Assembly: GCF_039645565.1 (NCBI RefSeq)
Contig: NZ_CP147914.1
Coordinates: 1,857,573-1,921,572 of the forward strand
Direction of reading: 5' to 3'
DNA length: 64,000 nucleotides
From: Sulfurimonas sp. HSL1-2
Lineage (GTDB): Bacteria; Campylobacterota; Campylobacteria; Campylobacterales; Sulfurimonadaceae
Shown here: positions 60,062 through 64,000 of the stretch, piece by piece
Numbering within the stretch: the stretch's first letter is position 1
Layout: each line of letters begins with the position of its first letter
Notes under the pieces: generated by a model
Database searches by the model: none
The model's input: the letters and a program-made list of their open reading frames with translations, nothing else
Told to the model about the DNA's origin: nothing
Made by a program: the position numbers and the translations under genes

Positions 60062-62701
60062 TCAGCTTTTTCCCGCAACGAAGGTATTGAAACAGTTCCG
60101 CATCTCCGAAAGCACGCCGGCGTAATCCAGCGCGCTGTTGCCCCCGCGGGCTTCCAACTCCATCGATTCGGCCAGCCGGGTCATCGCCTCGAAGCGGAAA
60201 TTGCTGCTGGAACCCTTAATAGAGTGTGCCAGCAGGGCGACCTGCTTGAGGTCCCCCGCGGCGATCGCCTCTTCCAGCGCACCGAAACTCTGCATCATCT
60301 TCTCCCGGTAGACGCCCAGCAGCATCTGAAGCTGCGCCTCGGTGACCTGCAGAATCTCGCACAGCTCTTTGTGTTCCGGAACCGTCACTTCGGGCGTCAC
60401 CTCCGCTTCGTCTACCCTTTCGGCGCGGGGAAGATAGCGTTCGAGCGAAGCAACCAGGGTCTCCATACGGATCGGCTTTCCGAGGAAGTCGTCATAGATG
60501 CGCCGCTGTTCGATCCCGCCCAGTACGTTGGCCGTCAGGGCGATCACCGGCAGGTGCGGCCGCCGCTCCCGGCTCTCGATATGCCGGATCGCCTGCAGGG
60601 CGTCACGCCCGTTCATGACCGGCATCTGCTCGTCCATCAACACGAGGTCAAACGCCTCAGAGCGGAACCGTTTGAGCGCCTCGGCCCCGTTGCCGACGAT
60701 CGTATAGGTCACCCCGAGGTTCCCCAGCAGCGTGCCGATCAGCTCCTGGTTCGCTTCGTTATCCTCGGCGACCAGGACGTGGCCGTCAAAACGCACCCCT
60801 GCCGTATCCCTTTTGGGCTCCGGTTCGACGTCACCTGTCAGGGCCGTTTCGATCACCTCCTGCAGTTTGGCGCAGTACAGCGGCATCACGAGCGGGGTCA
60901 CCCCGCTGACACTCTCATAGGTGTCATAGGGGGCATCCATCAGCACGACTTTTGGGCGCTCGGCTGCCAGAAGCGCATCCCGTTCCGGCGCTCCGATGCA
61001 GTGTTCGGAGAAAAAGAGGAGGTCGTAATCGCCGTCAAGCTGCTCCACCGCCGTGATCTCCACGCCGAAGCTCTGGAGATAGCGAACGAGCGACGCCGCC
61101 ATCGGGTCGAATTTCTGCTCGGGGCAGTAGAGTGCGAGCCGCTTGGTGCGGATGCACTCCAGGTCCGTCAGCAGCGGGCGCGTTTCATCCCCAACGCGGA
61201 CGGGAAGCGTGATGGTGAAGGTACTCCCGATCCCGGGGTGCGAGTGCACCGTGATCTCCCCCTCCATGTGCCGCACCAGCTGGGCACTGATGGAGAGTCC
61301 CAGCCCCGTACCGCCTGCGGCCGGATGGTCCGCGTTCCTCGCCTGGGAAAAGGGGTCGAAGATGTGACGCTGGTCTTTGGCCGCGATCCCGATCCCGGTG
61401 TCGATGACGCTGATGCTGATCCGCCCGTCGGTGTAGTATGCCTCGACCGTGATCTCCCCGCCCGGCGGGGTGAACTTGATCGCGTTTCCGAGCAGGTTGG
61501 AAATGACCTGCTGAATGCGCAGCGGATCGGCGATCAGCTCGTAGGGGATGCGCGGATCGATGAAGCTTGTCAGGGTGAGATGCTGCTGGTTGACGCTGGG
61601 GACGAAGAGTTCCAGGGTATGGGTGATGGTACGGTGCAGGTTGAAGGCTACGGGGTCGACGGTGAACTCGCCGCTGCGCAGTTTGGAGAAGTCGAGGATA
61701 TCGTTGATGATGCTCAGCAGGTTCTCGCCGCTGCTGTAGATGATATCGAGGTAACGGCGGTCTTTGGCCGTCTGCGCTTCATCCTTGAGCAGGGCCACAA
61801 ACCCCAGGATGGCATTGAGCGGCGTACGGATCTCGTGCGACATGTTGGAGAGGAAGTACTCCTTCGCCTCCCCCGCCGCGATCGCCTCCTCTTTGGCCAC
61901 GACAAGGTCGGTGACCTCGTAACTGATCGCCATGTACTCCGTCACCCCGCTTTGCGTATCGGTGATCGGGACGACCGTCGTGTCGATGTAGAAGGTCCGT
62001 CCCTCTTTCGCCCTCCCCTTGATGGTCCCTTTGAAGACCCCCTCTTCGCTGATGGCCGCCGCCAGGTGATTGAAAAAGCTCCCCGGCATTTCAGGGTCGT
62101 AAAGCATGGTATGGGAGCTGCCGACAAGCTCTTCCTGGCTGTAGCCGCAGACGCGTGTCAGTTTCTCATTGGCATAGGTAATGATGCCCTGCGCATCCGT
62201 TTTGGCGACGATGGCGCTTTCGTCGATGGCCCGGCGATACTCTTCAAGCAGTTTGACGTTGCGCTCGATCTCCCGCTCTTTCTGGTAGATCGTCTCGGTA
62301 TAGCGTTTGAGCACCCCGGAGAAGTTGAGGTCGAAGACGTAGCTGATCTCGTCGTAGACCTCCTGCGAATTGACGCCGATCTCGTAGGAGACATCCACCA
62401 TTGCACGGCGGAAGTGGCTGCAGAGCATAAAAAGTTCGTCGGAGGTGACTTCGTGGTCTTTGAGGTATTCGAGCAGTTCCGCCATGACCGGGCAGTCGCC
62501 GATCTGCATCTCACCGCGGATGACCATCTCGAAATAGTCGTAGACCCCCGAGGCGTACTGGCGGATAAAAAAGTCGGTTTCGATCCCGTGGCGCCGCAGC
62601 ACCGACCCGGCCGCCTCGTAGGAGACCCAGCGCTGCAGAATGGTCGCCTTGGCCTCCTTGAAACGGTCAATAACCCGTTGAAGCTGCGGAACGGACGGCA
62701 T
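60062..62701 (-). CDS. Hybrid sensor histidine kinase (PAS, HK, receivers, HPt), 879 aa
   Basis: No membrane segments. An N-terminal helical sensor region (about 1-150, resembling RsbR-type globin-like domains) leads to a PAS domain (AIDESAIVAKTDAQGIITYA; ANEKLTRVCGYSQEELVG), kinase core (NMSHEIRTPLNAILGFVALL; GNAIKFTPPG; DTGIGIAAKD; GGTGLGLSISAQL), a degenerate receiver-like stretch, an intact receiver (VLVAEDNEANQELI; LVLMDEQMPVMNG; FLGKPIRME) and an HPt domain (LLAHSIKGSSSNFRFEAM). A full cytoplasmic phosphorelay. AGGAGAAG precedes the ATG. Confidence 0.93.
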   Translation of the reverse strand: MPSVPQLQRVIDRFKEAKATILQRWVSYEAAGSVLRRHGIETDFFIRQYASGVYDYFEMVIRGEMQIGDCPVMAELLEYLKDHEVTSDELFMLCSHFRRAMVDVSYEIGVNSQEVYDEISYVFDLNFSGVLKRYTETIYQKEREIERNVKLLEEYRRAIDESAIVAKTDAQGIITYANEKLTRVCGYSQEELVGSSHTMLYDPEMPGSFFNHLAAAISEEGVFKGTIKGRAKEGRTFYIDTTVVPITDTQSGVTEYMAISYEVTDLVVAKEEAIAAGEAKEYFLSNMSHEIRTPLNAILGFVALLKDEAQTAKDRRYLDIIYSSGENLLSIINDILDFSKLRSGEFTVDPVAFNLHRTITHTLELFVPSVNQQHLTLTSFIDPRIPYELIADPLRIQQVISNLLGNAIKFTPPGGEITVEAYYTDGRISISVIDTGIGIAAKDQRHIFDPFSQARNADHPAAGGTGLGLSISAQLVRHMEGEITVHSHPGIGSTFTITLPVRVGDETRPLLTDLECIRTKRLALYCPEQKFDPMAASLVRYLQSFGVEITAVEQLDGDYDLLFFSEHCIGAPERDALLAAERPKVVLMDAPYDTYESVSGVTPLVMPLYCAKLQEVIETALTGDVEPEPKRDTAGVRFDGHVLVAEDNEANQELIGTLLGNLGVTYTIVGNGAEALKRFRSEAFDLVLMDEQMPVMNGRDALQAIRHIESRERRPHLPVIALTANVLGGIEQRRIYDDFLGKPIRMETLVASLERYLPRAERVDEAEVTPEVTVPEHKELCEILQVTEAQLQMLLGVYREKMMQSFGALEEAIAAGDLKQVALLAHSIKGSSSNFRFEAMTRLAESMELEARGGNSALDYAGVLSEMRNCFNTFVAGKS

Positions 62702-62765: not shown

Positions 62766-63590
62766 TCAGGGGGCCACCCAGGCAACGACGCCGAGGCCGA
62801 GCAGCGCCAGCTGCCCCAGGGCGATCGCGGAGGTCCCGATGATGTTGCCCGTCTGGCAGCTGGTACACTGCTTGTACTTTTTCGCCTCGTACTCGGCATA
62901 GAAAAAGTAGGCGATGATCAGCACGAAAATGAGGGCCAGAGCCCCAAGGTCCGCGAGGGCAACGCTCCGCACTGTCGTTTCTTCGAGCATGAAAGGTGCA
63001 AGGAAACTGAGCAGGACGCCCAGCATCACCAGACGGTAGGCCTTCTTGATATAGTCGCGTACGAAGACCGTCGGACAGCTGCCGCTCTTTTCGCCGGGCA
63101 TCCGGCTCTCTTTGACGAGGCCGTGTTCGAGGTAGGCGTCGATCTGCGCCTTGACCGCGCGCGGGACCCGGTCGACGAAAGTACTGCCGAAAGCGTAGTC
63201 GAGCTGGTGCTGGAAGGTGCGCGCCAGCGCCCCCTCCACGTCGCGCGAATGCATCTGCCCCGTTTCATCTTCGTAGATGACCGTCAGGGAGGTGTAGCGC
63301 TCCACTTCCGCCGTAAAGTCGTAATAGGTCGAACGTTCCACCGCAGCCGCCCTGCCCTGCTCTTTGAGGAAGCGGGCGTTGATGTAGGGGGTGTATTTCC
63401 CCTCCTCTTTAAGGACGATGACGTTGTACTGGATGCCGATCTGGATCGCAGAGAGCGCGTCGAGGCCGTTGGCCTCCATCGTGTCGGTCATATCTGCGAT
63501 AATGTCTTTGAGGGTCTCATTGAAAAAACGGACATTACCGGAAATAAGACGTATGCGCGGGTCGGGGTATTTAAGCAGTGGCTGGATCAT
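62766..63590 (-). CDS. Membrane-anchored, catalytically degenerate peptide-deformylase-like protein, 274 aa
   Basis: The first 165 residues align in pattern with peptide deformylase (PLLKYPDPRIRLISGNVRFF; GLDALSAIQIG; TAEVERYTSLTVIYEDETGQ) but the catalytic motifs are altered: the EGCLS motif reads ERSTY (Cys lost) and HEIDH reads HQLDY. The C-terminal third has three membrane segments (LVMLGVLLSFLAPFML and others) and a CTSCQTG pair. Deformylase activity is therefore unlikely. It may be a non-enzymatic membrane protein that binds peptides or metal. Confidence 0.78.
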   Translation of the reverse strand: MIQPLLKYPDPRIRLISGNVRFFNETLKDIIADMTDTMEANGLDALSAIQIGIQYNVIVLKEEGKYTPYINARFLKEQGRAAAVERSTYYDFTAEVERYTSLTVIYEDETGQMHSRDVEGALARTFQHQLDYAFGSTFVDRVPRAVKAQIDAYLEHGLVKESRMPGEKSGSCPTVFVRDYIKKAYRLVMLGVLLSFLAPFMLEETTVRSVALADLGALALIFVLIIAYFFYAEYEAKKYKQCTSCQTGNIIGTSAIALGQLALLGLGVVAWVAP

Positions 63591-63642: not shown

Positions 63643-63807
63643 TTATCCGTGGCTTTTACGGACGACGATGATCATCTTGATGTTGATGATCACAAAACGG
63701 ATGAACTGCCAGATTTTACACGTACGCATCATCCGGGCAAAACGGCCCGGGATCATCGAGGTGTTAAACTTGTCATTCAGTGCGAAATTCACTTCTTCTT
63801 GTCTCAT
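63643..63807 (-). CDS. Small basic protein, 54 aa
   Basis: MRQEEVNFALNDKFNTSMIP followed by GRFARMMRTCKIWQFI and a hydrophobic basic tail (FVIINIKMIIVVRKSHG) that could be an amphipathic or membrane-associated helix. GGAGGAG sits 5 nt before the ATG. It is 17 bases downstream of the cut-off gene, so both are probably in one operon. I do not recognise a function. Confidence 0.65.
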   Translation of the reverse strand: MRQEEVNFALNDKFNTSMIPGRFARMMRTCKIWQFIRFVIINIKMIIVVRKSHG

Positions 63808-63824: not shown

Positions 63825-64000
63825 TTATTCCGGAATCAGCGTCCAGCCCGGCTTGAGCTTCGCTTTGTAGATAAAGAGGTAGTGCAGGATGTGCTTGATC
63901 CAGTGTCCTGCCAGACCGATCTCACCGAAGGTGTAGTCCGTATCGCGGCCCGTACCCGGGTATTTGTCGAAGTCCGGAACAACCGGGTAAACCGTCATCG
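63825..64000 (-). CDS. C-terminal end of an unidentified gene, at least 57 aa (cut by window edge)
   Basis: The frame reads TVYPVVPDFDKYPGTGRDTD, then FGEIGLAGHWIKHILHYLFI and ends KPGWTLIPE. An ATG at 63998 could be its start or an internal Met; only two bases remain upstream, so this cannot be decided. Several His and Tyr residues and an amphipathic helix are visible. Product unknown. Confidence 0.5.
   Translation of the reverse strand, partial: MTVYPVVPDFDKYPGTGRDTDYTFGEIGLAGHWIKHILHYLFIYKAKLKPGWTLIPE

Follow-up and report, generated by a model that had tools for sequence, protein, structure and literature searches.

A membrane-fused peptide-deformylase fold without its catalytic residues: a probable and so far unrecognized helper in sulfide oxidation

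Canonical peptide deformylases (PDFs; PF01327, with solved structures such as PDB 2ew5 and 1bs4) are recognized by three motifs, here exemplified by LAAIQ (motif I), EGCLS with the catalytic Cys (motif II) and QHExDH with the catalytic Glu and the metal-binding His residues (motif III). The available portions of a survey of accessory PDFs (PMC12690207) describe type 3 PDFs as inactive accessory PDFs of S. aureus and S. pneumoniae with changes in motifs I and II. A second described system, sulfide:quinone oxidoreductase (SQR), concerns the same locus by way of a neighbouring gene. In the consulted text of a 2015 review on Sulfurimonas (PMC4584964), the high conservation of type IV SQR is taken as a sign that the enzyme is likely vital, and what the various SQRs do is described as enigmatic. 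Here, we describe a protein of Sulfurimonas sp. HSL1-2 that has the fold of the first system and is encoded beside the second. It lies near one end of the window, by which we mean the whole stretch of 64,000 nucleotides that was analysed. The features are as follows, with coordinates in the window:

62766..63590, minus strand: PDF-like membrane protein, 274 aa (open reading frame, PF01327 match, family of 103 loci)
63159..63584, minus strand: PDF-fold domain, residues 3-144 (Pfam match)
63324..63338, minus strand: motif II site, ERSTY for EGCLS, residues 85-89 (alignment with the genome's canonical PDF)
63195..63212, minus strand: motif III site, QHQLDY for QHExDH, residues 127-132 (alignment with the canonical PDF)
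63075..63077, minus strand: C172 of the CPT motif, in 96/103 (family alignment)
62985..63041, minus strand: hydrophobic segment 1, about residues 184-202, limits approximate (family-mean hydropathy)
62895..62957, minus strand: hydrophobic segment 2, about residues 212-232, limits approximate (family-mean hydropathy)
62853..62867, minus strand: CTSCQ, residues 242-246, with C242 and C245 in 102/102 (family alignment)
62781..62846, minus strand: hydrophobic segment 3, about residues 249-270, limits approximate (family-mean hydropathy)
63643..63807, minus strand: gene of a conserved 54-aa peptide between the SQR and PDF-like genes (open reading frame L003:5216-5380; alignment of 21 peptides)
63825..64000, minus strand: 3' end of the SQR gene, which continues past the window (L003:5398-6888; open reading frame, profile, alignment)
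60062..62701, minus strand: hybrid histidine kinase gene directly downstream (domain matches; adjoins 41/79 trios)

Compared with canonical PDFs, the whole domain aligns and the motif I Gln and the structural N, E, R, Q and D are shared, but the catalytic Cys, the catalytic Glu and the second His are missing, and a membrane part with a CxxC and a place in a trio with SQR are added. The likeness to type 3 PDFs, as the accessible text of PMC12690207 presents them, is that an accessory PDF with altered motifs stands beside a canonical one; in this comparison, made by description only, the PDF-like protein differs in that motif III is altered too and in its membrane fusion and respiratory context. 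That portion of the survey contains none of the words 'campylobacter', 'transmembrane' and 'sulfur'. The Aquifex SQR (3hyv) resembles the operon partner, not the PDF-like protein, which is no SQR.

The first-pass annotation, made from the sequence alone, had read a frame at 62766-63590 as a peptide-deformylase fold, and the frame was found exactly there. PF01327 (Pep_deformylase) matches the protein with an E-value of 4.3e-26, far above the cut-off and over the whole domain; solved PDFs are found from E 8.5e-13 with the protein as phmmer query, and a profile of its family matches the PDF structure 2ew5 with E 4.2e-35 (positions 4-165). Together, these matches make membership in the PDF fold family secure by sequence. 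Six NCBIfam PDF models also match, each under its curated cut-off (best 64.8 bits vs 190). An AlphaFold model built from an alignment of three sequences (the window protein and those of L035 and L036) has a mean pLDDT of 40.4. The nearest named records come from a Campylobacterales MAG (95% identity), followed by Sulfuricurvum MAGs (73% identity; 100% over 52 aa).

A separate, canonical PDF is encoded in the same genome (2.52 Mb, one contig) at C1:222134-222592, scoring 166.8 bits, and its intact LAAIQ, EGCLS and QHEMDH served as the reference for alignment. ERSTY and HQLDY do replace its catalytic Cys and metal motifs in the window protein, as first noticed. The accompanying claim that Cys, Glu and His were lost together was correct for the catalytic Cys, the catalytic Glu and the second metal His, but not for the first metal His, which is present as residue 128. 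To place these changes, we use the long, membrane-fused form of the family, fetched at 103 loci that leave out G003 and G007 (both with altered motifs) and the 52-aa ends in G021/L037; one locus (L069) has no PDF part, leaving 102 members for active-site counts. The altered motifs are family-wide, and none of the long-form relatives examined has the intact motifs that the first-pass annotation had named as the mark of a decayed local copy: Cys occurs at the catalytic position in 0/102 (T 73, S 18, D 10, N 1), Glu in 0/102 (K 81, Q 15, others 6) and the second metal His in 0/102 (Y 79, M 10, F 10, others 3). The first metal His is found in 7/102, the window protein included, with R in 84, Q in 10 and V in one of the others. 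N71, E85, R98 and D131, which are structural PDF residues, are present in 102/102, Q127 in 101/102 and the motif I Gln in 95/102. The long form has neither the EGCLS Cys nor an HExxH with Glu, and the window protein stays below the NCBIfam cut-offs for PDF enzymes.

Purifying selection acts on the gene: the two closest pairs have a dN far lower than dS in the PDF part (0.011 vs 0.225; 0.032 vs 0.400) as well as in the membrane part (0.012 vs 0.228; 0.102 vs 0.824). In three pairs of greater distance, dS approaches saturation. Together with the absent active sites and the separate normal PDF, this supports, at the level of sequence, the proposal that the fold was probably repurposed and is not a deformylase. 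The window protein is matched in 58/60 relatives and the family profile in 395/397 genomes of the phylum, tallies that take canonical PDFs and the long form together. The long form itself is found in 79/397 phylum genomes (a hand count of rows with best E <= 1e-68) and in none of the rows from the large family groups f11 and f14. G421 and G276 are the only two of the 397 genomes without any family-profile match, canonical PDF included, probably through assembly gaps or search sensitivity. Scans of viral contigs with the family alignment and with the canonical PDF gave no relatives. A phage origin is unsupported, with 0/14 phage records covering 80% of the query, and so is a plasmid origin, as the single plasmid record over 80% cover is a Sulfurovum plasmid with the same trio. 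A 395-kb plasmid of Sulfurovum mangrovi (NZ_CP087125.1) bears this trio; its annotation splits the PDF-like gene (L198:9001-9816) into two short 'peptide deformylase' genes, perhaps owing to a frameshift.

C-terminal to the PDF domain, family-mean hydropathy peaks at window centres 188-198, 218-225 and 256-265 and never exceeds 1.4 in the PDF part, which bears out the three fused membrane segments of the first reading. Its CTSCQTG cysteine pair corresponds to C242/C245, invariant in the 102 members counted (one row is gapped at the CxxC), and residues 226-252 around CTSCQ have the lowest mean entropy of five parts (1.18; PDF part 1.79). The third conserved cysteine, C172, was absent from that reading. 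Positive charges exceed negative ones (K+R vs D+E) before segment 1 (2.61 vs 1.70) and in the loop between segments 2 and 3 (2.24 vs 1.07), with no positive excess between segments 1 and 2 (0.80 vs 1.25). By the positive-inside rule, positively charged loops lie on the cytoplasmic side, so that the PDF domain and CTSCQ are both predicted to face the cytoplasm. Segment 2, together with the Cys pair, bears a weak and non-significant likeness to the FeoB-associated Cys-rich membrane protein family (PF12669; E 0.22, below cut-off), for which we claim no homology.

In 79/103 loci the gene stands third on one strand in a trio of SQR, a peptide of about 54 aa and the PDF-like protein. In Sulfurimonas sp. 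HSL1-2, most of this trio sits outside the window edge, and the first-pass annotation did not notice it. The trio is found in 47/67 loci of family-level group f1, 2/2 of f4, 18/20 of f6, 1/2 of f7, 1/1 of f9, 10/10 of f18 and 0/1 of f22. In f1 it is mostly preceded by a large conserved ORF (c5) and followed by the kinase; the outer neighbours are c9 and c14 in f18, and c11 or c25 with varied genes in f6. Exact starts of neighbours are uncertain, as these genes were called by greedy ORF choice. The occurrence in six family-level groups with changing flanks argues that the trio is a kept unit rather than general synteny. On a quick protein tree (26/100 inner branches weak), SQR linkage requires 5 changes vs a shuffle mean of 20.2. 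Rfam has no match between 62600 and 64000, and a promoter and terminator scan between the genes of the trio region gave no clear signal.

The SQR of the operon (489 aa) lies upstream on the same strand. The profile of this neighbour matches the Aquifex SQR 3hyv with E 3.6e-43, and cysteines align with those of 3hyv both in the CTA(D/E)H stretch and in the Cys stretch that follows it; match and conserved cysteines together identify it as an SQR. Among the 79 long SQR rows, CTCQG and an Ala before the third Cys are found in all and CTADH in 67, and none carries a Tat-like motif within its first 45 residues (the SQR tree holds 85 rows, 12 SQR rows having been dropped by a motif filter). The Ala before the third Cys is a described trait of type IV SQR (PMC9666304, in the part available), which makes type IV the likely class, an assignment based on this one residue. 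Another SQR-like protein, which has a Tat-like start, is encoded past the window edge at L003:9029-10708, and a 77-aa hydrophobic protein without family match starts 3 bases after its gene. Small membrane proteins thus accompany both SQRs.

The 54-aa peptide has no match in Pfam or NCBIfam, and an alignment of 21 sequences contains 13 invariant columns (WQFIRF..IN.KM..VV.KSH). Among 80 genomes, hand-picked rather than random, 53 have SQR and 52 have the peptide, both well beyond the range of the PDF-like gene, and in 20 SQR loci without a linked PDF-like gene the peptide follows SQR in 19. SQR and peptide without the PDF-like gene suggest that the PDF-like protein is accessory, lost or never gained in places, and a strict dependence of SQR on it is rejected. 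One locus fetched for this set, L179, contains a 46-aa PDF-like remnant. A C-terminal MTxLx motif is seen in 2/79 peptides with the PDF-like gene (all trio peptides) vs 8/15 without it, relatedness not being removed; the latter are 15 of the 20 fetched loci, and adding L187 and L192, of the VV kind, gives 8 MT of 17.

Outside the trio stand 24/103 copies, several of which are second copies in trio-bearing genomes (G008, G013, G019). In one of them (L136), SQR directly precedes the PDF-like gene with no peptide called. Neighbours of the 24 include a MerR gene in nine, an AhpD-like gene in eight and a DsrE-like gene in four, each family being tested on one example. The AhpD/DsrE label requires 6 changes on the PDF-like tree, and the association may thus have arisen more than once. 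Such neighbours suggest a link with the chemistry of thiols, peroxides or sulfur and not with translation. At L053:6983-7441, a DsrE-like protein with a signal-peptide-like start is encoded directly before an off-operon copy.

Considering its sequence context, we regard the PDF-like protein as probably a helper of sulfide oxidation. The specific role that we favour, and to which we give an even chance, is that of a catalytically dead, membrane-tethered PDF-fold protein dedicated to assisting the adjacent SQR, itself probably of type IV. The dead PDF domain would stay cytoplasmic and offer SQR or the small peptide a surface on which to dock at the membrane. C242 and C245, usually with C172, would then lie at the cytoplasmic membrane face, where they may accept sulfane sulfur from SQR or hold SQR thiols in the right redox state, and thereby aid turnover or product release. 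Consistent with this are the trio itself and its recurrence among differing outer neighbours, active-site residues lost and CxxC kept in the same 102 members with dN far below dS, the charge bias that puts the CxxC loop in the cytoplasm, the cysteines retained in SQR, the off-operon copies near AhpD-like and DsrE-like genes and the peptide C-terminus that varies with presence of the PDF-like gene. Against it count the copies outside the trio and the SQR-peptide pairs without a PDF-like gene; the protein is not needed for every such SQR. More tentatively, and less likely than not, type IV SQR, the 54-aa membrane peptide and the PDF-fold pseudoenzyme may form an unrecognized three-part sulfide-oxidation unit in Campylobacterota, in which the CxxC would relay sulfane sulfur from the flavoenzyme to the cytoplasm.

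The kinase next door suggests another role, that of a membrane redox or sulfide sensor whose dead PDF domain reads the state of the CxxC and signals to the histidine kinase, which would control the operon. This hybrid kinase has PAS, HisKA, HATPase, receiver and Hpt domains, and its N-terminal part contains CPVM and CSHF stretches that recur in several relatives. Its position in 41/79 trios and the MerR genes near 9/24 off-operon copies fit such signaling, but the kinase belongs to the unit solely in f1, with other genes following in f18, f6, f4, f7 and f9, and in five loci (L178, L180, L181, L187 and L194) it comes straight after the peptide with no PDF-like gene present, making a sensor unlikely. 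We consider it similarly improbable that the protein is an assembly or membrane-targeting factor, its PDF fold helping SQR or the peptide to reach the membrane with no role in turnover. According to the available text of PMC12690207, E. coli PDF docks at the ribosome via its C-terminal helix, and trio order and the invariant N71, E85, R98 and D131 in a membrane-fused protein would suit an assembly factor; however, it leaves the invariant CxxC unexplained, and many genomes make SQR without the PDF-like protein.

A CxxC at the start of segment 3, at the membrane edge, and a quinone reductase as operon partner could also suit a thiol:quinone oxidoreductase that passes electrons from thiols to quinone in the manner of DsbB or VKOR. 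The CxxC of DsbB works outside, not on the cytoplasmic side as predicted here, and the family has one invariant Cys pair only and no DsbB/VKOR Pfam match, so we hold this to be quite unlikely. Very improbable is a deformylase that uses a different active site or metal: the consulted portion of PMC12690207 discusses type 3 PDFs that are active and have altered motifs, but the family-wide loss of Cys, Glu and second His goes beyond type 3 as described there (motifs I and II), and a canonical PDF is present in the genome. That the gene is a decayed local copy of PDF, as lost motifs and the one true remnant elsewhere (46 aa at L179:5942-6082) might suggest, we reject in view of a reading frame open family-wide, the uniform replacement motif, the invariant CxxC and dN far below dS.

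Among the open-access matches listed, the PDF-like protein is undescribed, although a subscription paper could exist; no paper in the open-access literature joins peptide deformylase, quinone and Sulfurimonas, and none pairs pseudoenzyme with peptide deformylase. The 'deformylase' of PMC6548844 is the unrelated formyl-tetrahydrofolate deformylase. At least one family record (on the Sulfurovum mangrovi plasmid) is annotated as peptide deformylase, a label that conceals what is probably a gene for sulfide oxidation in bacteria from sulfidic habitats. The conserved trio offers a directly testable handle on the roles of SQRs. If true, an essential enzyme fold would have met with an unusual fate as a dead PDF in respiration, and if the cysteines do relay sulfur, a relay protein would have been made from a dead translation enzyme.
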